The notes beneath the pieces are model-generated. The model saw nothing but the letters and a program-made list of their open reading frames with translations. It did no database searches and had not been told where the DNA came from. The position numbers and the translations under genes were made by a program. Shown here piece after piece: positions 21,601 to 56,500 of a DNA stretch of 64,000 nucleotides (its first letter is position 1; every line of letters begins with the position of its first letter). The stretch comes from Dysidea avara (taxonomy: Eukaryota > Porifera > Demospongiae > Dictyoceratida > Dysideidae): assembly GCF_963678975.1 (NCBI RefSeq), contig NC_089276.1:8353953-8417952 (forward strand). Direction: 5' to 3'.

Positions 21601-24600
21601 ATCAGTTTTTAAAAATAAAACACTGATATGATTTTATGATCATAAAAAACCGAAGTAAAACTTTTTATGTCACATACTGTAAACACTCTCCATGTGTCGT
21701 ATAGAAGAAGTACTGAGAACGTACATACTACAGTTGTTGAGTTTCCTATGAGTAGTTATAATGACACACGGATTCCAGCTTTGGAAAACAAGTGTTGCTC
21801 AGCTTCAGTGCATATATAGAATAGTAAATTGTAGCTATGCAGTAGTGATTAACACGGAGTACATATCAAGAAAGATTTATGAAGCCTAGCTGTTATATAT
21901 ACGCTCTCCATACTTTCACTGCACTTCTAACAAACAATCGAAATTAAAATCATTATCAAATTAACCATGTATGTGCATGTGGTATTATGCAACGGTCAAG
22001 GTCATCATTCCTTTATTGAATAATGAACATGAAAGTTCAACAAATGCTCATAATTAATACTTTAATCCAAATAAAGTTATTTACAGGGTCTAGTCTTAAA
22101 AATTTTGTGCAATGGAACTTGTTGTTTTTAAACTCTGGGTGCAGGAGCACTCAAAATGGTCTCACATTGGAATGTGATGTTGTGTATATTCTTGTACAGA
22201 TCAGTTGATGGTTGTGTGAGGAAATATGATATTAGGATGGGAACATTGCTAGTTGATAATGTCAAACGTGAGTTGTTGTCTTATAATTACACAGACATAC
22301 AGTATGTACATGAATTAAGGAAATTTACTAGACAGTTTTTGTACCTAAGAAGGAATCTGTTCTGCTGAGATTTTAAATCCTTAATGTTAATTTAGAGAAA
22401 TTCATGTAATACTTTTGACAACTGGTATTGTAGTGCAATCAACTGGATGTTACTGCTCTGTTAGAGTAATTTGTTCTTCTGTGTGAAAAAGTTTACATGT
22501 TGTTGTTTTCTGGAGTACCTATAAGCCCCTATATACCCTCAGTATGATCTGGAATACAGACTGTATAATTACAAGTACATGATAAAATTTGGAATTTTCA
22601 ACTAGAGTAGGGACCATAATACATCGATAAAAAGTACTGAAACAAGCTGGAGTAGTTCATGATATTAAACCACAACAAAACAATAAGAAGTGTTATATGG
22701 AAATCTGGAGGCTATTTTACATCCAAAGTCTTAACATCAATGGTAATTTTGTGCTACATTACCAATTAATTGAGTTTCATAATTATAGCTAGTAGCTAAT
22801 TTTATTTTCATGATTTATACAAAAATTTCTCAACGTGAAAGTTTAGTTTTAGATTGTAACTGCATGTTAATGCATGACATGCATGATCAAATAGCTCAAT
22901 GCAGTGTGCCATGCAGATGACTCACTGAGTAATAAGACAGTTAACACAGATGTCATGGCTTAGACTATAAGCTATACTCTATACTGAATGCTTTATTAGA
23001 GTATCATGATGACTGTTCTATTAGAGTATATTTTGATGACTGCTCTATTACTGCTCTATTAGAGTATCTCGATCTTTTCACTAAAATCCAGCTTAAAAGT
23101 GATTGGCCGGACCGTGGGCTCCAGCCCTGACCCATTGCACAGCATTTTGAATCAAGAACTGTTCGTAAAGCACCTCTGCAATCCACGCATATCAAAAGAA
23201 ATCGTGCCGCGCGCCCCAATTATATTAATTATCATCTGAAAAGTGAAGTATCCAGTACACTATGCTGTTGGCTATGTCCAACCCGTTACAAAGCAGTATG
23301 AATCAAGAACTATTTGAAAAGCACCTCTGCTTTCAAAATAGCCACTATGAAAATATAGATGATTTCCGTTACGAAGGGAAGCCATCACGTGCTATTGCCA
23401 AATCGACACTTTTGGCTGTCAGCAAAGATGAATGGGACACAAAAAAGGACACTGGTAAGTCCATGAAGAATGCATTGTACGTACTGTGGTATGCCAAAAG
23501 GCACTTGTCGGGCTGAAGCAACGTCGAATAGTGAAAAAATCAAGCCTGTAGCCTTAGCTGTTATTGAGTTACGTTTGTCGTCAGTCAGTCAGTTACTCAG
23601 TCAGTCAGTAGGAAATTCCATTGAATAAAAAATTTTTAACAACTTGTTGAAAGCATTTGGGTCGATCTGAGAGCTTGTTTGGACTTAGTTTTACCTAACC
23701 AATACTGCTTCATCGTTGTCTGGGAAAATTGAGGCTGGTTTTTGGGTGATATTATTTTGTGGGCCACGCCTACTCCTTTTTGGTCCCTACTATACAGTAC
23801 TATTGTACTGTATGATAGGCAACAATCAAGTAGCTATTATCAAGACACACGGTAGTGTGTTGTGCTGCCAAGAAAGCCAGCGCACCGTGAGTATATTGAC
23901 AGGAAGAAAGAAAACAGCTTTTTTTCATGCATGCATATCTCCATGGCCCCTTCTCCAATGCACACCATTTTTACATTATAGCTGTCCGCTAGGTAGGGTA
24001 GGCCACACAGCAAATTTGATTAAAGTTGCAACAGCCATTTGCGAGATATGGGTGTTCAAAGTTTCTTCATTTTTTTCTTCTTATGCCATATGGGAGCTAT
24101 GGGGGCTTCGATTAATTTCGCACACTTTGCAAAAATTGCTATAAAATAGGACCATGCGCTAATACGTAGTAAAACCCGTATCTTGATAAGTGACTACCAT
24201 TTTATCTCAATAATCAATATTATCTCGATAATGATGTGACATCATAAGAACACAGTTTACATATAAAGTTAAGTAGTGGTTGTTAAGTCAGAATTTTTAT
24301 CACTTCCCAAACTAGTTTGTTTCCGTGGTTGATTTACAATAGATTACAGAGATTTACTATTATCTTGATAAACAAATTCATTATCATATCAATGATAGGT
24401 GATTTAGGTAGATAATCTTTTTATTTGAATTATCTCCCAGCTCTACTAACCACTGTATCACCTCACTTAATTTCTGCTTTATAAATGAAAATTCTTGTTT
24501 AAATTACTTATACATAAACGTTTGTAATTTCATTAGATCTACCACTAGAAGTACTAGATTATTCTAGAACATTCTATGTATATTCTATTAGAAGTTCTCA

Positions 24601-27600
24601 AAAAATGTGCATTCTATTAGAGTATTACAATAATATCAAATATTGAAGTTATCTCATGCAATGCAATACATTTATAAGTCTGTCTTCAATAATCATCATT
24701 GTATCTGTCTAGAAAAGAAGAAATGTGAGTAAAAGCAAATCCCAAAGTCAGGCTTTTGGGCCTTATAAAGTACAAAAAGAAGTGAAATCTACACAAAAAC
24801 AGCCAAGCTGGTGCAGCCTTAAAAAGCCTGGGTGAAAAAAGTTGTGAAATTAAAGGTGGTGGCCAAGAAACAGCTGCAATGATGTTAATGCTAAAAATTG
24901 TGTGGATTTCATACCACAGAAATAATTGTGTACTTAAAAATATGGCGTACTTAAAATGAGACCAACTTGCTGGGTACGTGTTTGTTAAACTTCTGTGGCA
25001 TAACACCACCAGCAAATGTTACCATCTCAGCAAAAACCTGCATAGCTTGCACCAGTATACTTTTAATAAAATGAAAGTTTTAAAAATAGGTGAAATTTTA
25101 CACTCTATAAGGAAAAAAATATGCAAGTTTTATTATAATACTTTTATTTAAGCTGTTACTCAAGGAATCTAGTCTTGAATCTATACACCCTCTTATTCAT
25201 CTGTGCATAAATAATTCTTGTTTGTTCTTTTTTCCTCAAGCGTATGTGTGTTATGTGTATTTGCTTATGATGTCGTTGATGCTTGTATGAGCAATTGAAT
25301 ATACTATTATCTTGATGTCATGGTGAACATTTTAAACCAAATTCTAACTCTGTACGCCAATGTATAGGAAACTATGACTTCTAGTGTCTGTGGTTTATTA
25401 AACTGAATGCCAGCTGTGGGCGCATGCCCTAGTTTACTGAATTGTTTTCGTATAAATTGTGTGTGTGTGCACCTACCGTATAGCTCCAAATTTTGGAGAC
25501 AAAAACTTTCGTGATTTTCATGATGGCTATTGCAGTCATGATTTTTTTCATGAAAATAATTTTGTAGCTGTTAACTACATCATGTAATTTGTTAAATCAC
25601 GTTATATGTGAATGTGGCTAGTGTTGAAACGAAAATGAGTTTGTACAAGTTCTGTAAGCGTGAATCACCCCTTCCTAGCTCAAATGGTCCTCTGTTAAAG
25701 TTCAACTATTAAGGCTGCAAATGATGGAGTATCAGTTATGTTTTCAACAGTAGAGCAAAATTGGCAATTGTAACCTTGTCCTTTCCTAACAGCCACTTAC
25801 TGTACAGCCCTCATTTTCTTCCAACGTGCTACCGCTTCCACCTGTATCTCACGGAATTGCTGCAGCGATAAGGCATTTTAAAAATGAGTTTCCAAACTTG
25901 AAGTGGAGCACCGTTAATGACTGGAAGACAGCAATTACTGAATACAGGAAGAAGGCACATAGCAAAGGAAATTGCAAAAAAGACAAACAAAAAAAAAACT
26001 GGAAGACCTTCCATGTTTTCAGATGAGCTGAGCAAACAATTACGGATGTACATACACACATTGAAAACACTCAAGTCATAATTGCTGCTGCTACAGGTAT
26101 ACTTCAGAAAAGAGATCCAGCATTGTTGGAAAACACTGGAGAGCTGAAGAAAAGCTTGGCTGAATATTTCCTTGGTAAGATGAATTATGTGAAGAGGAAG
26201 ACCACAACTTAAAGTAAGGCTCGCTGTAAGCGATTTTGAAGCTGTCAAAAGCCAGTTTTTGCTGAACATCAAAGGGGTCAAAATATGGAAGAAATACCTG
26301 ATGAGTTGTTGATCAATTGGAACCAAACCAGGATAAAATATGTTCCAGTTTTTCAGTGGATGATGGCTGAGAAGGGATCCAAGAGAGTCGAGCTGAATGA
26401 CAAGAGGTAGATCACTGCAGTGTTTGCAGGAAGACAGGAGACTTTCTGCCAGTTCAATTAGTTTATGAAGGAACAACATCTAAGTGTTATCCCGGTGGAG
26501 TTGACTTTCCTGCAGGTTGCCTCATATCTGCTATACCTAACCACTGGTGCAATGAAGAGATTATGCTCCTTCATATCACCAAGATCATTGTACCATATCT
26601 GCAGCAAAAGAAGAAAGAGATGGGCTTACCTGATGACCAGTCTTCACTTGTGATATTCGATGAATTTTAAGGCCAAACCACAGAGAAAGTCTTATCCTAC
26701 CTTGACAAAAACAATATACTATATGTAATGGTACCCCCAAACTGCACAGATCAGTTGCAACCATTTGATGTGAGTGTCAGCAAACCTGAGAAACATTTTC
26801 AAAGGGCAAAATTTCATGATTGGTATGCCAAGATCAGTTGGATGAGAGAGTGGGGTCTGCTGGTAACTCCACTATTAATTCTATCAATCTTAGGCTGAGT
26901 ATCGTGAAGCCTATTGGAGCACAGTGGATGATTGAATTATACAACTTTTAAATCATCATCCACAAATTAGTATAGGTGCGTATCACACACATTTGAGTGC
27001 AATTTGTACGAGTATCAGTCAAAATTGCACGAGGTGAAGCTGAGTGCAATTTTGGCTGTTACAAGTACAATTATTCCATAATTACACTCAAATGTGTGTG
27101 ATTACCTACTAATGTAGTACACATCTATATATCCAGTTCTGTGTAGCCACTAACTTCTAACAGGTGATTGCATCATTCTTTCAGCACTTAAAAGGTTTCT
27201 TAATCTGATATATCTTTTATTGTTGCATTTTAAAAGCTTCATATTTCAGCAATTCTGATATTTTCAACATTTTGTTGCACGTAAAAGGCTTCTGTAATTC
27301 TGTTATTCTATTGGCTACTATACAGTGCTATTACAGAAATAAACCATGTGATTTGGGATTAATTACACTCTTGGTGCAAGAGTACATAATATTTTATGGA
27401 TATAAACATTATGTACTCTTGATTGCACTCCGGACTAATGTGTAGCAAACTAAACCACTATGTGATTGTGATAAGTAACACTGTTTTCACATGGACACTC
27501 AAAAGTGGGTTGGTTCAACCCGAGTTAAGTAACGGATGGTATAAAACATTGACTGTGGACTATGGACTGGACTGTGAACTGGACTATGGACTGAGTATAA

Positions 27601-35573: not shown

Positions 35574-38500
35574 CACACACACATTTTGTAGAGTATATAA
35601 GTAGCATTCTATCTGTACAGTAGTTGATGTTTGCTGTTTGAGTTATTAGTGTACTGAATACTGAGCTGGGATAGCCTTCAGAAAGAGACACACCATTCCC
35701 ACTATCAGAGCACTATTGCATTATAAGTTATTTGTCTTGAATGTTGACAAGCCTGAGACTCAACCGACTTTCCACTATACTTCTCCACTCTTCATTGTAT
35801 GAAGAAACACTACATGGAGAAACTCATAAAGAAGGGTGGATTTCTTCTAGAAGATCCATGAAGATGAGCAGTGATACATCGTCTATCCTGTGCTGGTCAT
35901 TATGACATAGCATCATGAAGGGAAAAGGTTAACCCCAGCCTGAGAGCAGCTGATAAGTGTGTAACACCCCTTTCATATGGTCACTTTAAACCACCATATT
36001 CAACCCATGTTCATATGATGATCCAAGTCATATGATGATCCAAGTCATACGATGATCCCACAAGTCATAACCGAGTTCAACCCTACAAAGCAGTTGAACT
36101 CAGTTTATGGCTTCAAAAGTGGGTTGTGGTTTTTGATGAATACATAAAATGCATAGAAGACAATTATCACTCAATGAATACCATCATGTGATGATTGCTT
36201 GTGAACAGAAACTGGGTTGAACCTGGGTTGAATGTGGGTTATTCAACCCCACTTTTGGGTGGCCATATGAAAAGGGTGTAAGATATGCTTGAATAGTGTC
36301 TGGGTGACAAGTACATCTTACTACGCTATGACTTGCATATCACTTTTTGTCCCCCCAAAGTGGTGTCTCTTTTTAAACTCACATAATATGGTGCCACCCC
36401 TCAAAACTGAATTTCATTTAAGAAGCTGCTCAACTCAAAGGAACCTTAAATCTAGCTGTTGCCAATATTGCTTTATTACACTTTGTAACAAGTCATAATG
36501 ACAATGTACAGAGTATTTATTTGAAGAAAGCACAGGTGTGGCTCCAGAAGCTTAGGCACCTTGCAGCGCTTATGAGCTCTTGTAGCTATGCTTTATTCCA
36601 GTTTGTTTGCTATATACAGAGAATTCCTCTTCACTGGCTTCCTCTATATGTTTTCATGGGAAAATGTCTGAGTATGCTATCTTCCTGACAGTGTAGGGGA
36701 TCAATCCATCATCTTAGGCATTTGAAGAGCTTCATTCCCATATGGAAATCTTTAATTTAGTCATTACCTGGACCTGGAGCAATTTTTCCTGCTTGGGGCT
36801 CCAGTAAAATGTATTTGGCATACTTTACATACTGTAAGGGCCCCATGGCCACTTTTATTTTCTGCCATTTGGCCCTGCCAGTGTGCTATCAGATAGAACT
36901 GATCTGATGAAATAATATGCCTAGTTGACTTTATCCGACAAATCACATTGGCAGGGGCAAGGGGCAGAAATAAAAGTGGGACCCTTATAGTATGGAAAAG
37001 TACACTAAATACATTTTTACTAGCTGCATGGGGAAAAATTGCTCCAGTTACCCAGGTGGCCCTACACACTGGTAACTCTTTTATATGGTGACTAGTTGTT
37101 TAGTGCAAATCTGCATGACAGATGTCCTTTTTACAGATTCTAGAGTGCATCGTCACTTGCTTAAGGGCCCAAGGACACAAAGTACATAGTCAGTTTGGTC
37201 ACCGAAGACTTTTAAGACTCCTTCTGTAGACTTAGCCAATTTAGTCAAAATCTTATAAGTGTTCTTATGATGACTTGGACAACCACTAATGACAATGTGA
37301 ACATGTAGAACATTTATACAAAAACAAAGGGTGTTGTTTACTCATGGCATGAAAAGGTATGTGCAATTAATAGTCTATTGTCACTTGTAACATGGCTTCA
37401 TGATGTCTGCTACAGTACTCCCCTCCCAGTGAACAGCTTGGTGAGTGGTAAGATTCCTTGTAGCACAATGCACAGCAGTGATGTTGCAGTGCATAATAGC
37501 TTGCATGTTGTTGATTAGCTGTTGATGTTTGCTATAGATACTGTAGTCTGAGGGGCAGGGCTGAAAGTGGTTTTACTGTGATGGCTGATGTTAATGACAA
37601 TGGGTTGCACAGTGGGAGTGGTGTTGGTGGTGGTGGTGATCCTTCAACTACAGTCTGTGATTAGGAATACCAGTATGTGGGAGGTAGCAATATTGAATGT
37701 GACAGTCGAGAGATGATGGCGTTGTTAGATGAAGCGATGTTGAAGTTGGTGGTGACCCATTGAGAGTTGACGATGACGTAACGATGTTGCGGAGGTGGTG
37801 ATGATGTAGTTGTGTCGTGAACTCGGTGCTTGGTATTGATGATTTGCAGCGGTGTTGATGTTGAAAGGTGGCGAATTGCGATGACAGCCAGTGAGGGAAC
37901 GTAGGGGACTGGTGATGATTGATTTGCTGGACAGCGATGGTGATTGTGAAAGGTGGAAGAATGCCTGTCGGTAAGTCATGCCGGTCGGTAATGTAGTTGC
38001 ACATGATGAGCTCAAGTGAGGTGTTGAGTGATGGATGCTCTGTGACCCAGGACGTATTGCAGTGTTGGCTGCGAACATAGCTGCTAGGAGACAGTGAGTC
38101 ATCAGGTTCTGTGTGATGACACTGTGAGTGCTATCCTACAGAGCAGAGCCATGGGGTTTATGGCAGTCTCTGCAGTAGCTCATGTCAGGGCTACCAATTG
38201 TAGGTAACAAGGCATCTTGGTCTTGTAGGATCAGCTGCAGGTGAAGGTAGTGTGTTCTTATGATGACTTGGACAACCACTGATAACAATGTGAACATGTA
38301 GAACATTTAAAAGCAATGAAAAGATGTTGTTTACGTATGCATGAAAAGGTGTGTGCAATTAATAGTCTATTGTCACTTGTAGCATGGCTTCATGATGTCT
38401 GCTGATGGCTGCTACTCATGCAAATACTGTATAAATGTTACATACCAGTCAGTATCTCAAGGTAGACAAGAGCTGGTTTTGGGGCCTTATAAAGCACAAA

Positions 38501-41500
38501 AAGAAGTGAATTAATATTGGCTGTGTGCATTATTAAAATTTATTAACATTAACATCATTGCAGTTATTTCTTGGCCCCCACCTGTGATTTTTCACAACTT
38601 TTTCACTAAGGCCACAACTTTTTCATTAAGGCTGCACCATTTTTTCACAGCTTGGCTGTTTTTGTGTGGATTGGCTTACAACTGTACATGGTTGGTATGC
38701 ATGGTTAGCACTTAGGTGGCATAGTGATTGTGATGATTGCATTTAGGTGGGTTGTTGGTTGTAATGTTTGGTTTGGTTCAACCAGGAGCTTATAAACACC
38801 GAAGGTGTGAAGGAGCATGATTGGGGCGAGCCTTAGCAAACCCTACTGTAATTATGAGAATACACATTGCTTGCTTGATTGCTTGCTATCATGAATGCAC
38901 CATATGTTCATCTCCCTTATAAGGGATAAAGCCTATCAACATGTACACCTGGTTTTGCTATAATGTCAGTAGTTCACTAGTTCATGGATAGAGCTCTGCA
39001 GCCCAGGGGCTAGGACAAGGAGAGTATAGTGACAAAAGCATCTTTACAGAAGAGTCTTAGTGTATTTAATGTCAAATGTAGAATTAAACCTTACAATATA
39101 ATCATTATTGAAGTCTAAAAATTGTCAACATACATTTTATTTGCCTGTTTGCCAGCCTGGCTTAGTTGATAGGCTAGAGGCTAAATGAAGCATCATATAT
39201 CCACCATTTTATGGTACAATATGAGTGGCATGTGCCTTTGGAGTTGAAGGCCTTCCTTCTATGAAGTTGACTATAATAGTAAGATTGGAGACTATAGGTA
39301 AAGGCAAGACAGATTTCCTTACAGGCACGTAAAAAAAGGTAGAACCTAACACTAACTAGAACACTGCACTTTGACTGTAGCAAAAAGTAACAAACTATTG
39401 CACTAAAATTATTAATTTAGTGATGAAGTGGAGATATAAGCTATAAAAGGTTGTGAAACAAGATTATACGGATAATGGTATTATAACATAGCTATTTGGG
39501 GAAAGCCCTATGTGAGCATTGAACAAAATTAATAATTGTAATGACATGCCATTTCTGGCATGGATATTTTGTAATAACATCATCCTTATACCTTGCTTTA
39601 CAACTTTTTATCACTTGGATTACATAATTTTTTGTTACGCTTGCATTCCATGTTACACTACTTCATGAAAAACCTTATTAAGTGTTAACCATGGTAATAT
39701 GTGATCTTAGGTGTTGATGCTCAGACATACACAGTCACCATAGTCAGTAATCCAGCTGGTACACCAGTTAATGGATCTGCTAACACATTTGACTATCCCA
39801 TATTGAGTAATGTCACTCTGACATGTATGGCGGACCCCTCACAACTAGCTGGTGCTACCTACCAGTGGAACACTGGAGGATGTTTTACTAACAATGCTCA
39901 TAACGCTCCAACATGTTTTCCTACTGGTCAGACAACACAAAATGTAACTGATAATAATCTACTTGCAGAGGATGCTGGTACCATCACTTGTACTGTAACC
40001 ATTGGTGGTGTTAACTATACCAGTGGACCATTAACTCTTCGTATATCAGGTATGTATGTAAAACATTGAGAGTACATGTGATGATTGTCTGTACCAAAAA
40101 CAGCCAAGCTGTGACGAAAGGGAGTGGTCCCTTAAAAAGTCAGGGTGAAAAGGTGTGAAATCCAAGGTGGCAGCCAAGTAATTCCTTTTATACATTGTTA
40201 ATGCTGATCATTATAACAAGTAGAAGGAAGATCAGAAATTTAAAGTTGGATTAGGGATCAAAGAATAAAAAAGTAGTAGTAGTGAAACAAGGGAATAGAG
40301 TAGTGAAACAAGAGCTAGAGGTTACCTATGAAGTGTTAGGGATTAAATTTCCACTAGAATACCTGCAGGTATAGGCAACCTCTCTTGTTTCGCTACTATT
40401 TGTTATTCCCTTGTTTTACTATTTTTTCCCTAATCCAACTTAAAATTCCAAATTTTTCCTTCTACTTGTTTGTTTACTTTTTATAACACAATTCTGACTA
40501 ATGAACCCATGCATACTGCATCAAAAGGAAGAATAGCACCAGGCATCCATAAACTTGCTTTGTGTCTGAATGTGTGTCCCAACAATCAATTACTGAAAGT
40601 GCAGTGGCCATTATGCTTTGTCTTCAGCTATGTTCTGCCCATTACACAGCCATACAAATGAAGAATACTATGAGAAGTGTCTTTGCAATCACTACAGAAA
40701 TACGGACAATAAACATAATAACTACCACCACAGCCACAGGGAAACCGTATCATGCTACTATGGAATTGACACTTTGCCTTGTCAGCAAAAAGAACTGAGA
40801 CACAAAAGAGGATGCGTGTATTGTTATACATACTGTGGTTGGCGAAAAGGCACGTCTCAGGATGAAGCAAAGTCAAACAGTGAAAAAATCAAGCTCATAG
40901 CCTTATACATTGTCGAGTCTGAAGGCATCAGTTAAGAAAATTCAGTTAAAAGCATTCTATGGTATACACCTTATAACACATACTGTGACTTACCTACACA
41001 TACCACCCATCCACCCATCGAGCTCTATCATGCTCCTATTTACGCTCTATATTATATGCACAACACACATGCATGCATACATACAAGCAGGTAAGTATAA
41101 TACTACACACATATCAGGATACAAATACATACATAGACATGTCATTATGCAGCAGATAGTCATGTGAGTAAGTAAATTAGACACTCTTTAATGGGCAGAC
41201 CGGGGATGTCATTGACAAATGATAGGATTTTACTGCAACTTATGGGCTTCTTAACTTTGAATGAAAGTTACTTGTACAAGAGTGTACAACGCACAAACTA
41301 TGTATAAAAGCTCTGCCCACTGCAAGCGCATGGGAGCTGTACACGTCACTGGTTCCATCCACCACAAGCACATGGACAGTACTCATTATGTATAGGGCTA
41401 CACTACTGCCCCCATCCACTGCAAACGCATAGCAGCCACTGGTTGTGTTCTCAATCCCTGGCTATATATCAAGACACACGATAGTGTGTCGTGCGGCCCA

Positions 41501-44500
41501 AGCAGCCGGCGCGCCACTCCGTGAGTATTTTAACAGGAAGAAAGAAAACGCAATTTTCACACCTATGTAGCTCTGTGATCCCTGATCCGATTGGAACCAA
41601 CTTTGCTAGAGACGTGCCGCCCAGTTAGGGGAGTCTACATACCAAATTTGAAGAAAATCGCTCCAGCCATTTCCGAGATACGAGCGAACAAAATTTCGTT
41701 TTAATTTCTTTGTTTTTTTCTTCATCTTCTTCATTTCGTACACTTCGCAAAATTCGCCATAAAACATGAATGCGTGCTCAGATTGGGCTGAAATTTGGCA
41801 CACTTAAAGGGCTCTTTAAGGCGGATCTCCGTACCAACTTTGGTAGGAATCCGATGAACATTCACGGAGTTATGACCGATTATTTGCGTAAAATAAGGTC
41901 GAAGGTCTGTCACGCCTACAGGGTAAACCCCTTGGAGGAATCAGTTGAAAATTGATATGTAGATGGAGCAACCATCGTAGGAGTGCCGTTTTGTGGTTTG
42001 AAAAGAATCGGGATAAAGACCATGGAGATATGACACAAAACCCAACCTGTGTCAAAATTACGCGATCGATTTTTATGAATAAAAAAACTATTAGTTTTCG
42101 TGTCTACCAGGCAAACCGCTTAGAGCAACGAGCTGAAAATCAGTATGTAGCTGGAATAATCATCATAGAAAGTTCTTTCAGTAGTACAGAAGAATCGGAT
42201 TACAAATCACTGAGTTATGATTCGAAAGGCAACTACGTGCAGCAAATGCGAGATCGAGATACTCTAATAGAAGTCACCCTAATAAAGCATTCAGCTGCAT
42301 GTATAATTTACACAGTTATATTATATTGCAAGTTATTCTGTAGGGAATTCAGCTACAAACAAGTCACCCTGTAGTCAGATCAGCTAGAAGAAGGTACCTA
42401 ATAGAGCGTTCAGCTACAAAGAAGCCATCATGTAGAGAGTTTAGCTCAAATAAATCACCCTGTAGAGAATTCAGCTACAAACAAATTGCCCTGTAGAGAG
42501 ATCAGCTAGAAGAAGTTACCTTGTAGAGAGTTCAGTTACAAAGAAACAATCATGCAAAGAGTTTAGCTGCAAACAAATCACCCAGTAGAAAGTTCCGCTA
42601 TGAACAGATCACACTGTAGAGAGTTCAGTTAGAAACAAGTCATCCTGTTGAAAGATCAGCTAGAAGAAGTCACATTGTAGAGAGTTCAGTTACAAAGAAA
42701 CAATCATGCAAAGAGTTTAGCTGCAAACAAATCACCCAGTAGAAAGTTTCGCTATGAACAGATCACACTGTAGAGAGTTCAGTTAGAAACAAGTCATCCT
42801 GTAGAGAGATCAGCTAGAAGAAGTTACCTTGTAGAGAGTTCAGTTACAAAGAAACAATCATGCAAAGAGTTTAGCTGCAAACAAATCACCCAGTAGAAAG
42901 TTCCGCTATGAACAGATAACACTGTAGAGAGTTCAGTTAGAAACAAGTCATCCTGTAGATAGATCAGCTAGAAGAAGTCACTTTGTAGAGAGTTCAGCTA
43001 CAAAGAAACCACCATGTAAGAGAGTTCAGATGCAAACAAATCACCTGTAGAGAGTTCAGCTAGGAACAAGTCACCCTGTACAGAGATCAGCTACAAACAA
43101 GTCACCCTGTAGAGAGTTCAGCTAGAAGAAGTCACATTGTAGAGAGTTCAGCTACAAAGAAACTACCATGAAGAGAGTTCAGCTGCAAACAAATCGCCCT
43201 GTAGAGAATTCAGCTACAAACAAATCACCCTGTAGAAAGATCAGCTAGAAGAAGTTACCTTGTAGGGAGTTCAGCTACAAACAAATCACCCTGTAGAGAG
43301 TTCAGCTAGAAACAAGTCACCCTGTAGAGAGATCAGCTAGAAGAAGTTACATTGTAGAGAGTTCAGCTACAAAGAAACCACCATGTAGAGAGTTCAGCTA
43401 CAAACAAGTCACCCTGTAGAGAGTTCAGCTAGAAGAAGTTACATTGTAGAGAGTTCAGCTACAAAGAAACTACCATGTAGAGAGTTCAGCTGCAAACAAA
43501 TTGCCCTGTAGAGAATTCAGCTACAAACAAATCACCCTGTAGAAAGATCATCTAGAAGAAGTTACCTTGTAGAGAGTTCAGCTACAAACAAATCACCCTG
43601 TAGAGAGTTCAACTAGAAACAAGTCACCCTGTAGAGAGATCAGCTAGAAACAAGTCACCCGTAGAGAGTTCAGCTAGAAGAAGTTACATTGTAGAGAGTT
43701 CAGCTACAAAGGAACTACCATGTAGAGAGTTCAGCAGCAAACAAATCGCCCTGTAGAGAATTCAGCTACAAACAAATCACCCTGTAGAAAGATCAGCTAG
43801 AAGAAGTTACCTTGTAGAGAGTTCAGCTACAAACAAGTCACCCTGTAGAGAGTTCAGCTAGAAGAAGTTACATTGTAGAGAGTTCAGCTACAAAGAAACT
43901 ACCATGTAGAGAGTTCAGCTGCAAACAAATTGCCCTGTAGAGAATTCAGCTACAAACAAATCATCCTGTAGAAAGATCATCTAGAAGAAGTTACCTTGTA
44001 GAGAGTTCAGCTACAAACAAATCATCCTGTAGAGAGTTCAGCTAGAAACAAGTTAACCTGTAGAGAGTTCAGCTAGAAGAAGTTACACTGTAGAAAGTTC
44101 AGCTACAAAGAAACTACAATGTAGAGAGTTCAGCTGCAAACAAATTGCCCTGTAGAGACAAACAAATCACCCTGTAGAAAGATCAGCTAGAAGAAGTTAC
44201 TTTGTAGAGAATTCAGTTACAAACAAATCACCCTGTAGAGAGTTCAGCTAGAAACAAGTTACACTGTAGAGAGATCAGCTAGAAACAAGTCACCCTGTAG
44301 AGAGTTCAGCTAGAAGAAGTCACATTGTAGAGAGTTCAGCTACAAAGAAACTACCATGTAGAGAGTTCAGCTGCAAACAAATTGCCCTGTAGAGAATTCA
44401 GCTACAAACAAATCACCCTGTAGAAAGATCAACTAGAAGAAGTTACCTTGTAGAGAGTTCAGCTAGAAACAAATCACCCTGTAGAGAGTTCAGCTAGAAA

Positions 44501-47500
44501 CAAGCCACCCGTAGAGAGTTCAGCTAGAAGAAGTTACATTGTAGAGAGTTCAGCAGTTTAGCTGCAAACAAATCGCCCTGTAGAGAATTCAGCTACAAAC
44601 AAATCACCCTGTAGAAAGATCAGCTAGAAGAAATTACCTTGTAGAGAGTTCAGCTACAAACAAATCACCCTGTAGAGAGTTCAGCTACAAACAAGTCATC
44701 TGGTAGAGAGATCAGCTAGAAGGATCATCTTGCAGAGAGGTCAGCTACAAAGAAATCACCCTGCTTCATCGTTTCTTCTTCCTGTAGTAAAGAAAAAATG
44801 ACAGGTTAAAAAGCCCTAAAGCCGGCCATAGGCCCGCTTTGGGGTATACAAATACATAAAGAAGTGAAATCTAATCCAAAACAGCCAAGCTGTAAAAAAA
44901 GAGCGCGGCCCTGAGAAAGGCTATGGTGAAAAAAGATGTGAAATCCAAGGTGGCGGCCAAGAAATGGCTGTGATGGTAGGCTAATGGTAAAAATTTTAAT
45001 AACAACAATTCAGGTGAATTTGGTGCCACTTGGTCTTGACACAAAATTCACTTGAATTGTCGTTATTAAAATTTTTACCATTAACCTACCATCACAGCCA
45101 TTTCTTGGCCGCCACCTTGGATTTCACATCTTTTTTCACCATAGCCTTTCTCAGGGCCTCGCTTTTTTTTTACAGCTTGGCTGTTTTGGATTAGATAATT
45201 ATATCAAGACACACAGTATGTCGTGTGGCCAAGAAGGCCAGTGCACCACACCATGAGTATTAACAGGAAGAAAGAAAACAGCATTCACATGTGCATAGCT
45301 CCATGGCCCGTTCTCCAAAGCACACCATTTCTGCATTATAGCAGTCTGCCAGGTAGGGTAGGCCCCACAGCAAATTTGATTAACTTCACACCAGCCTTTT
45401 GCAAGAATCACCGTGGGGTTAAAAAGCTGCACAAAAAATGTTGAAAAAATAACTTGACATTGTCAGAGAACAAACTTTGGACCTCCATACCTAACACTTG
45501 CATCCTTGACCACTGAACCACTACTATCTTGGCTGATCACCTCAGTCACTGCGGGGGTGTATCCATTCACTGGACTGGACTACTGGACTGGATTACTGGA
45601 CTGGTCTACTGGACTCAAACTTGTTTTTGTTTTCTTTCCTTTTATAGCTAGACATAACCACAAAAGTATTTTAGAAATCACACTATTCATCACAAGACAT
45701 AAAACTTGCACACAAGACATATAAAACTTGTACATTATTCACAAAAAAAACTACACTAAAACCTCAGTGTATATCAACAATAATTTACCTAGCAATGATA
45801 CAAGCACTGTGCGCTGTTAACTCTGCTAAATGTATCTGTCAGTCTTTTCTAGCCTTCTTTTGTAAATAGCACGCATTGACATAAAATTCAGTCAGTTTTA
45901 CACCTGTGAATAATGTAGCATTGCCTAACCTTTCAGCAGTCTGCATATTAGATTGGCCAGCTCCTTGGTTTATAATGCATGAGTGCGCAGTGTTCAGTTA
46001 GCCAGAGAAACATTTTCCAATGCACACACTATCTAACAGGCAGGTAAGGCTGCATCTTTGTGAAAAACTACATGTAGTGTACACATTTTAAAGAATTCAA
46101 CCTATTGATTATGAACTTATGCATGCACCACTAAAACTATATTTAGCTGTATGTGCCTCTAAAATGCAATATAAGACACTGAGAACCCTGAGTGTGTGGT
46201 ATATACAGTAATGATCATGTGACTAACCACTTTTAGTGGTTGAAAAAGGTATTTGATCAAATTTTATGTGAGTCCAGTAGTCCAGTCCAGTAGTCCAGTC
46301 CAGTGAATGGATACACCCATCACTGTGGGATAAAAGAGTGCATGAAAATGTCAAAAAAACTTACTAGTGTTTGAACCAGGGACCTCCATACTGAACACCC
46401 CAATTCCATAACCACTGAACTGCTGCTATCATGGCTGTTCACTTCACTTATTGTCTACTTTATAAATGAAAATTCTAGCTAAAATCTACTCAAGTTCATA
46501 AATCTACCAATGGAAAATCTATGTGTGTTCTATTAGAAATCCTCAAAAAATGTGCTCTCTATTAGAGCATTACAAAAGTAATCAAAATTAATAAACTCTA
46601 TACAATATTCCATCGAATCAAAGCCAATATTATAGCCAATTTGGTACAGATCGGCAGGGTAGTACACTACTATTAAAACCCACTTGTGCCAATCATAATC
46701 ATCATAATAAGTGCTATACTAACAAAACTTGTCACAACAGGCTGGAAACCGTAAAAGGTGCAAAATTGAGCAACTGCAACTTATCACAATTTGCATGAAA
46801 AATTGAAATACTCTAATAGAACAGTCACTGCAAAATCCTAATAGACAGATGGTATACAATAATGTATACCTAATATGGAAGGAATTTACTTTGTTATAAA
46901 ACACTATTGCAAATAAATATAAATACAATTTTATGCAAAGAAGCACAGTATAAATTGGCTTTGGTATCAGATCAGTATGTATTTTTCTACATTGGTAGAA
47001 CACTAGTTTGTCCTATATCGTCTTCATTGCATCTGTAGATAAGAACAATGATTTGTGTGAAAACAAACCTCAAAGCCAGTTTATAGTTGGCTTTGGTGTG
47101 TATATTTAAATACAAAAAGAAGTGGAAGTCCATGTAAAAACAGCTAAGCTGTGTAAAAGGGTGCGTCCTTCAAAAAGCCTGGGTGAAAAGAGATCAAAGG
47201 TTGCAGCCAAGAAATGGCTGCAATGCTAATAAATTTTAATTATGGCTGTGTGCATTGTTTAAATTTATTAGCATTAACATCATTACAGCCATTTGTTGGC
47301 CACCATCTTTGATTTCACATCTTTTTTCACCACTTTTTTAGGCTGCACCATTTTTTTCACAGTTTGGCTGTATTTGTGTGAATATATATAGAGTAAAGGC
47401 CTACTTTATTCCCGGACTGGACTCATGGACTGGATTGGACTGGACTCACGGACTGGACTGGACTCGACTTGCAGATTGAGCTGGAAACTGACTTTCTAGA

Positions 47501-50500
47501 AGTAAACTAGCTCTTGCAATGCTGGAGAGATGCCTCTCTTTGAGCTATGCGTACGACGTTAGGCGCGGACATTTACCAATATGTTCGAATATACAGCAGA
47601 CGAGAATCATGTGAACAGTCACGCTTTAATCGAGGCGGCCTACAGGGCTTTAGGAAAAGCAGATCACTCAAGCATGGCTGGTCTGTAACATAGAGTTTGA
47701 ACGCCGTCACAGACCTAGGCGTGCAGTGAATGCCTTAGCTACTATACCATAATATGGAAGGACTACTGGGACTAGAGACGAATCCAAGAGAGAATGGCCC
47801 ACATTTGTGACTGGATCTACGAAAACCGTTCTTATTGCCCAAGACAGGAAGTTTGATTTTTTCACACAAACACAAAGCTTAATGAATGCACTATCAAGTT
47901 TCACTGCCACAGTCGACCAGAGTAAAGTGGTCTGCTTTTGCTGGCTGCTTTTTTAAAGCACAGTGGCGAGCCGTACGAGTGGTCTGGGGTCTTGATGGAG
48001 CCCTGGCCAACCAGGAGATGGCTGTGTGTGGCTGTACAGCTCTGTGGTGCTGGACAATGACCTGTGCTGTAAATTTCCTTTCATTTTAGCCAGTTCTGAG
48101 CCCTGAATGGCCCATAACTTGGCCTAATTCATCCCAACACGTTTCTTTTCAATTTTTGAACACCATCTTGCCCTCCTTCCAGGGCCCCCGCCTCCCAGCC
48201 TTCTGGAGCTCGCCTGATACAGACAACCTCGGTTTTAAAACTATCTAAAATGGTGGGAAACTTAGCTGTTGACTACTTCTTCAGTGGATGATCAGGAGGG
48301 TAAGAAATTGTTGTGAAACGTGTGAAAATTTGGTATGTGTAGCTGCCACCATTGGCCAGCTACAACACTCTGAATATTTAAAACCGACGTTTCTCAATAC
48401 TTTTAAATGGGCGATAAGACCGGTTTTCCCAGAGACAGTCACATTTGTTGATGTGATTCTTGTCTGCTGTATTCAAACATATTGGTACAATGTTCATTGA
48501 ACTTAACGAGCTACCGGATATGGCCTGCGATTGCCCTCGGCTGTGAAAGAGTCCTGTTGTGCTATAGCTACGGTGAGTGTATACCTATACAGTTCAGCAG
48601 TTGGGCTATAGTCTTGAATTCCGCATAGTGCATGAGTTATTTTTGCCGCGTGTTTCATCAACAAGAGAACTGAGATTATCAGCAGTTGTATGCATAGCTC
48701 AAAGATAGGGACCCGCCGATTATGCTGGCATAATTATGAGCATAATAGGTGCCTGAAAGCATTGAGCATAATGCTAGCATAATGGGTAGAATATTTGTGT
48801 AATAGTATGAATCCTTGCTTATCAAAGTAGCTATAACAGAAAGATCGATATACTTTAATAGAACAGTCAGTAACTCTAATAGAACAATCACATAGCTGAC
48901 TGTTCTATTAGAGTATATCGATCTTCTCTGTAATATACAGTTTGGCAAGTAAGTTTGTGCTTCAGCCACTTATTATTTATCCATAAACTGGAAATTATAA
49001 GTAGAGCATGAGAACTGAGGCATAAATAATTGGGCATAATTTGAGCATAATAGGTAAGTATTGAGCATAAATTTAAGCATAATAGGTAAATTTTTGAGCA
49101 GTGCAGCATAGCATAATAGGTAAAATTATGAGCATAATCGGCGGGTCCCTACTCAAAGATAGGCGTCTCTCCAGCATTGCAAGAGCTAGTTTACTATAGA
49201 AAGTTGGTTTCCAGTTCAATCTGCAAGTCGAGTCCAGTCGAATCCGTGAGTCCAGTCCAGTCCAGTCCGTGAGTCCAGTCCGCAGAATAAAGTAGGCTGA
49301 GGGAGAAAAAAACAAATATATATATATATATAAGGGGAGGGAGGGTGGGAAAGAGTAATCTAAGCACTGTTAGCAGTTGCAGCAGATAGAATGCCAATAC
49401 AGCTGACAGTTTTATTATTTATAGCTACCACCTTGAGTACGTATTTTCCAACAGTATACCTTAACAACATTAGTCAATGAAATATTCCACTGGTTGTCAT
49501 GATGACAGCATTACCATATCCCCCATGCTAACCCATGAGCTCAACAGGACAGACCACTGTCTGCATATCTTAAATTTATTGATAACTTAAATTTTGTTGG
49601 AAGGGTTTGGAGTTGCTCTGAAGGCATTTTTGGGCTTGGTTAAGCTTAACCAATACTGCCAAGCTGTTTTGAAGGAAAACTGAGGCTGTTTTGGGTGATT
49701 TTGAAGGACAAGAAAGCCCAAAACTCCCTTATCCATAACATGCAACACTACGTACTGTATGATGACCACACTCATCATTGGCATTAACATAATTGTAGCC
49801 ATTTCTTGGCCACCAACTTTGATTTCACAATTTTTTGGGGTGCCACACCCTTTTTAGGTATATATACAGGGCCATAGCAAGTGGTCCAGCTGGTCCAGTT
49901 TTGGCTGGACTACATTTCAGCCACTTGGAATTTTGTTAAAGATCTAATAGAGCAGTCAATACGATACTCTAATAGAACAGTTAACACAATAACTCTAATA
50001 GAGCAGTCAGCTATAGGTTTCAGTCACCAATCTTACAATTTGCATTGATAATTCCAGTCTGAGTTGCTTCCAAATTCAATCTCAGGGGGCTAAATTTTCA
50101 AAAAAGTTCCTGTTGGGGCAGTTCCCCTAGTTTGGCATGCTATGTGTAGCCTGCCACTTTTTTGGACTTTGCTATGGCTTTGATATATTGACAGTAAGGA
50201 AGAAATATGTTTTCATGCATGCACACAATAGCTCCATTGTCCCTTCTCAAAAGTACACAATTCTTTGCATTTAGCTGCTGGCCGACTTTGGCATCTCACA
50301 TTCCAAATTTCAGCCAAATCTGTGTTTGTTAAATACAAGCCCTCAAAATTCAGCTTAATGTCTTCTTTTTTCCTTTCATTTTTCACACTTTACAAAACTA
50401 TAATAAAATGAAATGTGCAACTCGACTGCCATGAAATTTGGGGATGTATTTAGGTGAATTCACGTACTACATGGCTAAAGGCACAGCCATGTGTGGGCAA

Positions 50501-53500
50501 AGACATGTGCAAAAGTAGGGCGATGTGTGGGCAAAAGTGGAGCCAAGTGTGGGTAAAGGCTGAGCAACTAAAAGTTTCAATGTATTCTTTTTAATGCGGG
50601 CTGCAACAGGATCTGCTAACAATGTCTCGAGGCTCCAAGTCAAGCTCTTCATGGTATATGCAGTAGTGACAATCTGTTTTAATTGCATTGTTCATGCACT
50701 AATGCATGTATCACACTTACCACACATGAGGTTGAAGTTTACTTAGCTATATACTACTTGTGAGATTGAAGTTACTTACTATCTAATCCAAAACAGCCAA
50801 GCTGTAAAAAAAGAGTGCGGCCCTCAGAAAGGCTATGGTGAAAAAAGATGTGAAATCCAAGATGGCGGCCAAGAAATGGCTGTGATGGTAGGTTAATGGT
50901 AAAAATTTTATTAACGACAATTCAGGTGAATTTGGTGCCGCTTGGTCTTGGCACAAAATTCACCTGAATTGTCGTTATTAATTTTTTACCATTGACCTAC
51001 CATCACAGCCATTTCTTGGCCGCCACCTTGGATTTCACATCTTTTTTCACCATAGCCTTTCTGAGGGCCGCACTCTTTTTTTACAGCTTGGCTGTTTTGG
51101 ATTAGATTTCACTTCTTTTTGTATTTGTATACCCCAAAGCCGGCCTATGGCTGGCTTTGGGGCTTTTTAAATCAATCTTTTTTCCTTTACCACAGGAAGA
51201 AGAGAAAGATGAAGAAGTTTTTAAATACTTTAAACTAATTCTGATTTTATCAGTAAATGTACAAATAATATGTATAATAAATACATTTATTACATGTTAA
51301 TTATTCCCTACAGATAATTTGTTTGCAACTCTCTACAGGGCGATTTGTTTGTAGTGTAGCTGAACTCCCTACAAGGTAACTTCTTCTAGTTGATCTTTCT
51401 ACAGGGCGATTTGTTTTTTAGCTGAGTTCTCTACAGGGTGATTTGTTTGCAGCTGAACTCTCTACATGGTAGTTTCTTTGTAGCTGAACTCTCTACAATG
51501 TGACTTCTTCTAGCTGAACTCTCTACAAAGTGACCTGTTTCTAGCTGAACTCTCTACAGGTGATTTGTTTGAAGCTGAACTCTCTACATGGTGGTTTCTT
51601 TATAGCTGAACTCTCTACAAGGTGACTTCTTCTAGCTGATCTCCCTACAGGGTGATTTGTTTGTAGCTGAACTCTCTACAGGGTGATCTGTTCGTAGTTG
51701 AACTCCCTACAAGGTAACTTATTCTAGCTGATCTTTCTACAGGGCGATTTGTTTGTAGCTGAGTTCTCTACAGGGTGATTTGTTTGCAGCTGAACTCTCT
51801 ACATGGTAGTTTCTTTGTAGCTGAACTCTCTACAATGTGACTTCTTCTAGCTGAACTCTCTACAGGGTGACTTGTTTCTAGCTGATCTCTCTACAGGGTG
51901 ACTTGTTTCTAGCTGAACTCTCTACAGGTGATTTGTTTGCAGCTAAACTCTCTACAAGGTGACTTCTTCTAGCTGGACTGTCTACAGAGTGACTGATTTT
52001 TTTGCAGCTCAACTCTCTACATGATGGTTTCTTTGTAGCTGAACTCTCTACAAGGTGATTTCTTCTAGCTGATCTCTCTACAGGGTGATTTGTTTGCAGC
52101 TGAACTCTCTACATGGTGGTTTCTTTGTAACTGAACTCTCTACAGGGTGATTTGTTTGTAGCTGAACTCTCTACAGGGTGATCTGTTCGTAGCTGAACCC
52201 CCTACAAGGTAACTTCTTCAAGTTGATCTTTCTACAGGGCGATTTGTTTGTAGCTGAGTTCTCTACAGGGTGATTTGTTTGCAGCTGAACTCTCTACATG
52301 GTAGTTTCTTTGTAGCTGAACTCTCTACAGAGTGACATGTTTCTAGCTGAACTCTCTACAGGTGATTTGTTTGAAGCTGAACTCTCTACATGGTGGTTTC
52401 TTTATAGCTGAACTCTCTACAAGGTGACTTCTTCTAGCTGATCTCCCTACAGGGTGATTTGTTTGTAGCTGAACTCTCTACAGGGTAATCTGTTCGTAGT
52501 TGAACTCCCTACAAGGTAACTTATTCTAGCTGATCTTTCTACAGGGCGATTTGTTTGTAGCTGAGTTCTCTACAGGGTGATTTGTGTGCAGCTGAACTCT
52601 CTACATGGTAGTTTCTTTGTAGCTGAACTCTCTACAATGTGACTTCTTCTAGCTGAACTCTCTACAGGGTGACTTGTTTCTAGCTGATCTCTCTACAGGG
52701 TGACTTGTTTCTAACTGAACTCTCTACAGGTGATTTGTTTGCAGCTAAACTCTCTACAAGGTGACTTCTTCTAGCTGGACTCTCTACAGAGTGATTGATT
52801 TTTTTGCAGCTCAACTCTCTACATGATGGTTTCTTTGTAGCTGAACTCTCTACAAGGTGATTTCTTCTAGCTGATCTCTCTACAGGGTGATTTGTTTGCA
52901 GCTGAATTCTCTACATGCTAGTTTCTTTGTAGCTGAACTCTCTACAATGTGACTTCTTCTAGCTGAACTCTATACAGGGTGACTTGTTTCTAGCTGATCT
53001 CTCTACAGGGTGACTTGTTTCTAGCTGAACTCTCTACAGGTGATTTGTTTGCAGCTAAACTCTCTACAAGGTGACTTCTTCTAGCTGGACTCTCTACAGA
53101 GTGATTGAATTTTTTGCAGCTCAACTCTCTACATGATGGTTTCTTTGTAGCTGAACTCTCTACAAGGTGATTTCTTCTAGCTGATCTCTCTACAGGGTGA
53201 TTTGTTTGCAGCTGAACTCTCTACATGGTGGTTTCTTTGTAACTGAACTCTCTACAGGGTGATTTGTTTGTAGCTGAACTCTCTACAGGGTGATCTGTTC
53301 GTAGCTGAACCTCCTACAAGGTAACTTCTTCTAGTTGATCTTTCTACAGGGCGATTTGTTTGTAGCTGAGTTCTCTACAGGGTGATTTGTTTGCAGCTGA
53401 ACTCTCTAAATGGTAGTTTCTTTGTAGCTGAACTCTCTACAATGTGACTTCTTCTAGCTGAACTCTCTACAGGGTGACTTGTTTCTAGCTGATCTCTCTA

Positions 53501-56500
53501 CAGGGTGACTTGTTTCTAGCTGAACTTTCTACGGCGATTTGTTTGCAACTGAACTCTCTACATGGTGGTTCCTTTATAGCTGAACTCTCTACAAGGTGAC
53601 TTCTTCTAGCTGATCTCTCTACAGGGTGATTTGTTTGTAGCTGAACTCTCTACAAGGTGACACTTCTAGCTGATCTCTCTACAGGATGACTTGTTTCTAA
53701 CTGAACTTTCTACAGGGTGATCTGATCATAGCTGAACTTTCTACTGGGTGATTTGTTTGCAGCTGAACTCTCTACATGGTGGTTTATTTGTAGCTGAACT
53801 CTCTACAAGATAACTTCTTCTAGCTGATCTTTTTACTGGGTATATTTGTTTGTAGCTGAGTTCTCTACAGGGTGATTTGTTTGCAGCTGAACTCTCTACA
53901 TGGTAGTTTCTTTGTAGTTGAACTCTCTACAAGGTGATTCCTTCTAGCTAATCTCTCTACAGGGTGATTTGTTTGCAGCTGAACTCTCTACATGGTGGTT
54001 TCTTTGTAACTGAACTCTCTACAAGGTGACTTCTTCTAGCTGATACAGGGTGACTTGTTTCTAGATGAACTCTCTACAGGGTGACTTACATGTAGCTGAA
54101 TTGTCTATCAGACTAACTGTTTGTAGCTGAATTCCGTGAATATCTTGCAATGTAATATAATTCTATAATGGAGTAAGTTATAAACGTAGCTGAATGCTCT
54201 ATTAGGGTGACTGTTCTATTAGAGTATCTCGATCTCGCATTTGCTACACTTAGTTGCCTTTCGAATCATAACTCAGTGGTTTGTAAACCGATTCTTCTGT
54301 ACTACTGCAAGGAGTTTCTATGATGATTATTCCAGCTACATACTGATTTTCAGCTCATTGCTCTAAGCGGTTTGCCTGGTAGATGTGGAAACTAATAGTT
54401 TTTTATTCATAAAAATCAATCGCGTAATTTTGACACAGGTTGGGTTTTGTGTCATATCTCCATGGTCTTTATCTCAATTCCTTTCAAACCACAAAAAGGC
54501 ACTCCTACGATGGTTACTCCATCTACATATCAATTTTCAACTCATTCCTCCAATGGGGTTTACCCTGTAGGCGTGACAGACCTTCGACCTTATTTTACGC
54601 ACATAATCGGTCATAACTCCGTGAATGTTCATCGGATTCCTACCAAAGTTGGTGCTGAGATCCGCCTTAATGAGCCCTTCAAGTGTGCCAAATTTCAGCC
54701 CTATCCGAGTACGCATTCGTGTTTTATGGAAGATTTTGCGAAGTGTGCGAAATGAAGATGAAGAAGAAAAAAACAAAGAAATTAAAACGAAATTTTGTTC
54801 GCTCGTATCTCGGAAATGGCTTGACCGATTTTCTTGAAATTTGGTATGTAGACTCCTATAACTGGCCGGCACGCCTGTAGCAAATTTGGTTCAAATCGGA
54901 TAAGGGATCACAGAGCTACATAGGTGTGAAAAATTGCATTTTCTTCCTGTTAATATACTCACGGTGTGGCGCGCCGGCTTCTTGGGCCGCACGACACACT
55001 GTCGTGTGTCTTGATTCATAAGGTCAAAGTTTGCTTATTACACATACTGTAGCTACCAGAGAATGAAGATCATAGCTTGTGTATAATCTGCATTGATGTA
55101 GTCTTAATTCACTGTGTGTAGCTACCAGTTACTGTACTAGATTAAGAAGTAGCTCATGTTCATAGCTATGTAGCTAGCTAGTATTTTCTTGCGGCTTTAG
55201 TCAGCTGAAAATTAATAGAAAGCTGGCCTGACTGTTGGTTTCTACTTAATCTGGTAGCAACTAGTGGTAATCATAATAGAGTAATATTGTTTAGCTACAA
55301 CAAAATTAACAACTGCAGCTTGATTATGTAGAAGTCTCCTCCATCATTGTGGGCATGCTTAACCTGTGATTACACTGATGAAGAAAGGGAGTGGTGAAGC
55401 ATAGTTATTACTTATAGCTTAAAATAACAATAACAACAGGTAAGGTGAACACATACCTAAAATTATCACCTATTACCATCCAGACAAGCTTTGGTTTGGA
55501 TCGAGGGTATGTGTGTAGCCTAAGGGACATGGTTGATAGACTGTTTTATTAGAGTAGTGTATGATTGACAGTGTCTTTCTACAATATAGCAGTTGCAAGT
55601 GTATATATGGAGATTCCAAGGGTTTCAGGAAGTTCCTTTTGAAATTTGGATTGGAAAATTACAGTAGAAACCAAATTTCATTTACTTTCACACAGCCATG
55701 ACAGTTGTGTCACACACAAAATTATTGTGTGTGCCATGCAGTCACATCATACCACATGACAACATTCCATGCATGGCAGCACATTGGCACACTGAATGTA
55801 CAAGAATTATACTTGCATCAACAAAATGGTTGAACATGTAGAGTTTCTTTTGATTGTGTCCAATGAGTGATTTAAATGTTTACGTTCAGCCCACTGAACA
55901 TACAAAGAAAACATCTTTAACCCATGTATCAGTGTCTGGAAACAATGCACCCATCTGTCTAATCAGTAATAACCTAATAATAGTCTGGTGTATATAAAGT
56001 TTAAAATGTACCCCATAGGATTTGATGTAGCTAGCTACAGTAGGTATTATTGCAATGGTCAGTACAAACACTTACTTGCATATTTGAAAATGCTCTTGCT
56101 GCTTCCTTTGGTTCCTCTCCAATATTCCCTCATATACAGTAAAATGAGTTATAAGGTCAAAATAATTATAGTAATATTATATGAATTTAGCCATCTGTGT
56201 GTATTTTAACCAGTAGTTATTTATTTATTTATTGCTTTCCTACTGATTGTGTTTTATGAAACTGAATGTAATCCCTTCAAAAACATAGCTGTATAGAAAG
56301 GTCACGTCCAAGAAATTATAAGTAACTGAAGAGCTGATATCTGGAGTGGCCAAGAATGAATGTTAATGCAACTAATTACAATTTTCTACATTCATTGTTT
56401 ATCATTGACTTTTGCAGTCTTGCTGCATTCCTAATCCTGTGAACTCTAATTGGCTAGTAATTTGGCCACAGAAATTCAATAGGAATGCAGTAAGACTGCA

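Follow-up and report, generated by a model that had tools for sequence, protein, structure and literature searches.

The 64,000-nucleotide stretch of the Dysidea avara genome analyzed here (contig NC_089276.1, positions 8,353,953 to 8,417,952; hereafter the window) contains two long arms in inverted orientation, which were named element A (+ strand) and element B (- strand) (Table 1). The original prediction for this locus had described them as the paired arms of a single 13.5-kb transposon of the Foldback/Galileo type. The terminus that it placed at 41468, ATCAAGACACAC, is indeed mirrored at 55015, and the two arms align in inverted orientation (41468-44763 versus 55015-51740) with 83.2% identity over 3,350 columns, array included. 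Within each arm the order of the parts is the same: a fixed terminus, a unique block, an array of ~31-bp units, a spacer and a palindrome of ~328 bp. The claimed unique subterminal blocks correspond to 5' blocks of ~0.87 kb each, which are 92.8% identical between A and B over 859 bp. The opposite-strand arrays, given as 2.5-2.8 kb, measure 2,426 bp and 2,805 bp with units of ~31 bp. Hairpins at the inner edges are likewise present; they are 95.4% alike and thus not identical as had been stated.

Folding of the palindrome and spacer of A as single-stranded DNA yielded -192 kcal/mol (z = -27.8 against 100 shuffles), which excludes a chance origin of the palindrome. The first 80 nt of A gave a z of -2.2. 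Comparison of the arrays of A and B revealed no distinctive register, the best match of A to B being ~82% and that of A to a shifted copy of itself ~83%. A search of Rfam gave 0 matches and a tRNA gene search found none. The motifs of the array unit, the terminus and the palindrome also had 0 matches in a viral contig collection. In a collection of genome contigs the palindrome motif had two bacterial matches, close to the chance number as estimated by hand.

Two further family members, elements C and D, had been recorded as solitary ends at 45194 and 23839. The latter position is correct, and the former terminus actually lies at 45203. Neither is a lone end, as both elements run to the same palindrome family. 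Both strands of the stem predicted in the spacer of A are visible in the alignment in B and C, not in D. Since 6 bp separate the 3' end of A from the start of C, a third family member lies within what was taken for the core of the foldback. Downstream of all four termini of the window, on the same strand, the palindrome or its remnant was found; in D the right palindrome arm is deleted except for its last 8 nt (GTGTGGAT). The flanking sequences are unrelated between the window copies (12-35% identity), both past the 3' end (A, B, C and remnant F) and before the 5' end (A, B, C and D). A palindrome after each terminus and unrelated flanks thus point to an element with two unlike ends.

One arm as the unit of the family

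The assembly to which the window belongs (550.8 Mb, 108 contigs) was searched with the first 22 nt of the terminus. This search revealed 8,377 exact occurrences, and 0 for the reversed control, in agreement with the earlier claim of a multi-copy family rather than a single rearrangement. The outer end of the palindrome occurs 11,714 times in the genome, each intact palindrome contributing two. Among the first 100 termini listed, the A-type letter is found in 17 and that of the D type in 83. Many copies therefore need not carry the array seen in A and B.

Twenty copies were fetched with 9.5 kb of downstream sequence, together with 38 further 3' ends; both sets are best matches to A and not random samples. 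In 18 of the 20 copies the terminus, block, array, spacer and palindrome follow one another on one strand, after which the element stops. These complete copies have a length of 2.5-7.6 kb with a median of 4.3 kb. The two copies lacking a 3' end are L014, which is cut within the spacer, and L022, which has a 200-N gap. All 20 start with ATCAAGACACACGATAGTGT, and the last 20 nt are identical in 15 of the 18 copies with an end, slight differences being found in L016, L023 and L026. The further 3' ends were recognized by the end motif with at most 2 errors. This identified 35 of the 38 (L057, L063 and L077 showed no recognized terminus), of which 33 are identical over the last 20 nt; L049 and L050 are counted apart here, although their common flank marks them as one insertion that was duplicated. 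In an unselected stretch with the first 61 termini listed, an exact palindrome end was present within 10 kb downstream of 35 termini and upstream of 11, compared to an expectation of 8.1.

Additional family pieces lie downstream of some fetched copies, on the opposite strand in five of the 20 (L013, L016, L018, L019 and L023) and on the same strand also in five (L013, L015, L016, L024 and L026). L018 is a convergent pair that resembles A/B, each member having its own palindrome. L016 is located inside the array of another copy, and L019 lies where the array meets the spacer in a copy on the opposite strand.

The orientation of neighboring termini was determined for 100 termini, the first ones listed (0-6.49 Mb of C1), using neighbor pairs no more than 15 kb apart. 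We observed 29 such pairs, with ~20 expected under random placement. Of these, 7 were convergent, 8 divergent and 14 pointed the same way, for which random orientation predicts a ratio of 1:1:2; within 5 kb there were 0 convergent, 4 divergent and 4 same-way pairs. This count comprises exact termini only, so that pairs with one changed end such as A/B are missed (the B terminus is one base off and that of C has a 3-base gap), an omission that should favor no orientation. Thus, the two arms, which had been thought to belong together, co-occur at chance level. A target duplication across the 13.5 kb was also looked for and none was found, the best match at 41468/55015 being 3 bp. Random orientation combined with palindrome ends downstream of the termini indicates that the family generally occurs as one-ended units and that inverted pairs arise by chance from the high density of copies. 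Consequently, the claimed element with paired arms was not borne out, and the unit of this family is one arm with unlike ends.

Insertion at AT and a probable Helitron-like affiliation

In order to find empty sites, the flanks of insertions were joined and the unoccupied repeat was sought. Among the matches listed for 22 joined flanks only L011 and L027 gave informative spans; that of L016 lies within an array and that of A in the window stems from the terminus of C itself. In another search, with 10 joined flanks, the best 40 of 2,747 candidates, mostly for L018, were scored; spanning matches were obtained for 3 flanks, and the result bears on these alone. In all five readable insertions (L011, L027, L018, L021 and L028) the empty host site contains AT and the occupied site reads ATC...GAT. 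All 9 empty copies fetched for L018, L021 and L028 agree on AT, which in L028 is adjacent to a substitution. Of the four sites related to L011, three show AT and the one in L026 reads TT. The flanks have a GC content of 29-32% and are thus AT-rich. No longer target duplication was detected at A, B or D, save TATAT in AT-rich sequence at A. The target is thus AT, with either no duplication (A/TC...TAGA/T) or a 2-bp AT duplication. Since each of these empty sites belongs to a single arm, single arms insert alone, including that of L018 despite its inverted partner.

These features resemble those of Helitrons. The 5' TC end of Helitrons is present, ATCAAG being found in 20 of 20 fetched copies and in 4 of 4 window termini, and AT insertion without a longer duplication was observed in 5 of 5 readable insertions, where a 2-bp duplication would look alike. 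According to the excerpted account of Helibat and Helraiser (PMC4778049), non-autonomous Helitrons resemble the family in that a 5' TC follows A, the ends lack inverted repeats, insertion takes place at AT in AT-rich surroundings with no longer duplication, and a 3' palindrome is present. A genome search with the Helitron_like_N (Rep) profile gave 150 scored matches of 230 candidates, many of them in open reading frames (ORFs) of more than 1,000 amino acids (aa), some entries being pieces of one gene. In view of the unlike ends with their TC start, the AT target, the 3' palindrome and the Rep matches in the same genome, we consider movement in trans by RepHel the most likely mode.

We therefore regard the family as high-copy, non-autonomous, array-carrying and Helitron-like (rolling-circle type), although it is not a proven Helitron, and the 13.5-kb foldback as two of its copies, A (+) and B (-), that face each other. 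For this joint reading we estimate a probability of about 75%. A fixed end with a small stem-loop, the unique block, the ~31-bp minisatellite, a spacer with a stem-loop and the terminal palindrome constitute, from 5' to 3', one element, and the host target of this element is an AT dinucleotide, of which no more than 2 bp are duplicated. A RepHel protein would presumably move it in trans by rolling-circle copying, and the 3' palindrome would most likely be the 3' end or termination signal. In the window, C follows A immediately, and insertions foreign to the family also lie in the interval up to B.

Several observations weigh against a Helitron-like affiliation. The family ends in TTAGA/T (TAGA/T) and not in CTRR/T, and its 328-bp palindrome lies at the very end, with no short hairpin ~10 nt inside. 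Helitron 3' hairpins are described as short, that of Helraiser being 19 bp long and set 11 nt inside (excerpt of PMC4778049); the family palindrome is more than 10 times longer. Also unlike Helibat and Helraiser, the family has a central minisatellite and no helper was found for it: no Rep-encoding copy with family ends was detected, and the terminus was absent within 3 kb upstream of 10 Rep loci, a search that covered the upstream side only and may not always have reached the 5' end. One canonical Helitron family of this genome starts with TCTATATTATAAG. Long ORFs are absent from the elements, with a maximum of 140 aa among 18 of them; the longest frame of the 5' block differs between copies, and three window ORFs tested against Pfam gave no match. 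Finally, a 2-bp AT duplication would account for the empty sites just as well, which makes a cut-and-paste enzyme possible. Upstream of one of the 10 Rep loci (L038, 325-514) we noted 190 bp that match an inner part of the 5' block (window 42106-42293) at 74%, on the other strand. This stretch may be either a module common to both or a dispersed repeat without relation to the family.

Our survey of an open-access paper library, with subscription journals and repeat databases outside its scope, listed no account of array-carrying Helitron-like elements with such a large terminal palindrome. Thus, the earlier suggestion of a distinct, possibly undescribed family agrees with this survey, whereas its assignment to the Foldback type does not hold. 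With more than 8,000 exact termini, of which the array-bearing kind forms a part, the family disperses kilobase minisatellites through an animal genome. Its members end in a long palindrome that is nearly perfect, and DNA of this type is usually unstable. If the helper is RepHel, the range of possible Helitron 3' ends would be widened by the family, which would also offer thousands of natural replicates for the study of palindrome copying, homogenization and inversion.

The 3' palindrome and alternative readings

The comparison of 57 palindromes, with the duplicated insertion L049/L050 counted twice, revealed 24 events (37 cells) in which both arms changed alike, while 1.7 cells are expected if the arms are independent. 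In the first 22 palindromes there were 31 symmetric cells versus 1.2 expected. These comprise 25 distinct symmetric variants, 22 of them private to one element; 14 of the 22 are columns of one 14-bp deletion which occurs in both arms of L011 and is absent from its near relative L012. Such symmetric changes indicate that one arm serves as the template for the other, through either gene conversion or hairpin-primed synthesis.

The loop was in forward orientation relative to the palindrome body in 46 of the 57 cases and inverted in 9, with 2 left without a call. The nine include the tail-to-tail joint L058, whose orientation is ambiguous. On a 5'-block tree of 21 rows the 5 inverted copies do not form one clade (approximately unbiased (AU) test, p = 0.00026) and are scattered like shuffled labels (4 changes, shuffled mean 4.6). 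One and the same variant, absent from the 46 forward palindromes, is present in both arms of five of the inverted nine; of the other four, L058 is mixed and three show the prevalent letter in each arm. Part of the flipping signal is thus explained by copies having exchanged their 3' ends, and recurrent flipping of the loop, strong on the 5'-block tree, is weakened by this variant. At two of the 35 recognized 3' ends, a pair of opposite copies is joined tail to tail and has a single palindrome in common. In one of them no second palindrome was present in the 245 bp before its terminus. The halves of the joints differ (97% versus 88-90% to A), which weakens their interpretation as fresh dimers.

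These data raise the question of a working hairpin end, at which parvovirus-like hairpin-primed copying would re-template the arms and invert loops. Parvovirus terminal hairpins are long palindromes whose centre occurs in both orientations (flip/flop), and the family palindrome resembles them in both respects. The 24 both-arm events including the L011 deletion, the nine inverted loops, the failure of five inverted copies to form one clade on the 5'-block tree, and the two joints sharing one palindrome are all in favor of such copying. On the other hand, the orientation is strongly skewed, 46 to 9 rather than near 1:1 and with L058 ambiguous, and the long palindrome is found at one end only. 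Inheritance of the shared arm variant with 3'-end exchange may give much of the signal, ordinary gene conversion of palindromes explains the symmetric changes, and the halves of the joints are unlike. A genome search for Parvo_NS1 gave no match; its control was also without match, so absence is not shown. Hairpin-primed copying therefore appears unlikely to us. Equally doubtful is the broader proposal of a distinct single-strand-based eukaryotic transposon lineage whose long 3' hairpin is self-copied at transposition, one arm being re-templated from the other. If it were true, the arms would be renewed as long terminal repeats are, with occasional loop inversion and occasional tail-to-tail joining. 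Helitron-like insertion between A and T would then be combined with parvovirus-like hairpin ends in an element that has spread thousands of minisatellite arrays.

The modular layout also recalls Helentron-derived HINEs such as Cg_HINE of the oyster and DINE-1. In the excerpts of PMC7492417 and PMC4067079 these non-autonomous elements consist of a left module, central tandem repeats and a right module with a 3' palindrome, both modules being conserved, and they insert without target duplication. However, HINEs share subterminal inverted repeats (criterion 11-15 bp), whereas no subterminal inverted match of at least 9 bp is common to A-D; a 10-bp match is found in both A and B and a further one of 9 bp in B, and C and D have none. 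The target was AT in 5 of 5 readable insertions and not TT, and the 3' palindrome has 328 bp instead of 5-10 bp. Affiliation with the HINEs is thus quite improbable.

We give similarly little credence to an unrecognized cut-and-paste DNA transposon without inverted repeats which would lie as CAAG...TTAG between a 2-bp AT duplication. This reading accounts for AT being present once in empty sites and on both sides of occupied sites. Nevertheless, the family has no terminal inverted repeats beyond ATC/GAT, and its ends are quite unlike, which is unusual for DDE elements.

A single 13.5-kb Foldback/Galileo-type transposon with array-built terminal inverted repeats, moved as a whole by a DDE transposase, is hardly tenable. 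Long arms with tandem repeats are shared with the family by Galileo (P superfamily; excerpt of PMC3573991) and Foldback of Drosophila and reportedly by Tetris, and in the window the inverted arms with their arrays and inner palindromes are real. A further complete convergent pair is present at L018, and opposite-strand pieces also lie downstream of L013, L016, L019 and L023. Solitary arms by themselves are no refutation, since 64 solo ends among 170 copies are given for Galileo, as are 12 chimeric copies without matching duplications (excerpt of PMC3573991). The same excerpt reports 7-bp duplications in most Galileo copies and 98-100% identity between the ends of one copy, compared to 92.8% between the unique blocks of A and B and no duplication around the 13.5 kb. 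Convergent pairs occur at chance level among the exact termini, 18 of 20 copies are complete as a single arm with unlike ends, five single arms including that of L018 have their own empty sites, and the supposed core contains family member C. In a short window, convergent one-ended copies that carry arrays can thus pass for Foldback transposons. Sequences with long inverted repeats are easily mis-assembled, but an assembly artefact is extremely improbable here, as the unique blocks differ by 7%, the arrays differ in length and share no order of units, and identical termini recur thousands of times.

Further features of the window and of related loci

The coordinates of the elements, their parts and their fragments are summarized in Table 1.

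Table 1. Family members in the window and features of other loci. Positions refer to the window unless a locus is named.
Feature	Position	Strand	Remarks
Element A, complete	41468..45196	+	5' terminus, 5' block, array, spacer, 3' palindrome; same order in 18/20 genome copies
A 5' block	41468..42330	+	starts ATCAAGACACACGATAGTGTGTC; 7-bp stem at 41473-41490; 92.8% to B over 859 bp
A tandem array	42338..44763	+	~31-bp units, ~79 units, 2,426 bp
A 3' spacer	44764..44868	+	stem-loop at about 44813-44845 (fold prediction)
A 3'-terminal palindrome	44869..45196	+	328 bp, end ...TTTTGGATTAGAT; from fold; end conserved among fetched copies
Element B, complete	50781..55015	-	inverted alignment to A
B palindrome	50781-51107	-	
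B spacer	51108-51326	-	
B array	51327-54131	-	2,805 bp, ~91 units
B 5' block	54132-55015	-	
Element C	45203..47383	+	diverged relative without A/B-type array; palindrome about 47136-47383
Insertion nested in C	45555-46318		764 bp, 48-bp inverted ends (98%)
Element D	23839..24907	+	short arrayless relative; palindrome family at about 24786-24907
Remnant F	38475..38671	+	3' spacer and right palindrome arm, end GTGTGGAT
Fragment E	50170..50460	+	old 5' block without terminus
Old palindrome-arm fragment	49757..49850	+	
Old palindrome-arm fragment	40097..40182	+	
Tail-to-tail joint	L079 4569-5070		spacer, palindrome, reverse spacer; reverse-complement coordinates
Tail-to-tail joint	L080 4572-5104		spacer, palindrome, reverse spacer; reverse-complement coordinates
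Shared start of canonical Helitron family	L033 1150, L034 1083	oriented with Rep	TCTATATTATAAG, probably 5' end

Between A and B a nested element with ~146-bp inverted ends (91%) occupies positions 47399-49297. Its interior (47803-48444) is repeated at 15513-16159 (~80%) and at 32137-32779 (~79%), and these two copies are 92.5% alike. Locus L079, which contains one of the tail-to-tail joints, also harbors a 0.9-kb sequence (1222-2114, reverse-complement coordinates) which matches its own reverse complement at 94%.

The short motif CTCTAATAGARCAGTCA was found at 19 window sites with at most 2 mismatches, for example at 23010, 35099, 46811, 48897, 49993 and 54208, while 0.04 sites are expected. 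The motif resembles a small dispersed repeat. Further long imperfect palindromes are located at 30870-31371 (self-inverted 77%) and 56267-56649 (71%). A Pfam search also found Ig and UBA domains in short ORFs, which points to an animal genome. A retroelement integrase remnant (Integrase_H2C2, E 2.4e-9) lies at 59354-59779 on the - strand.

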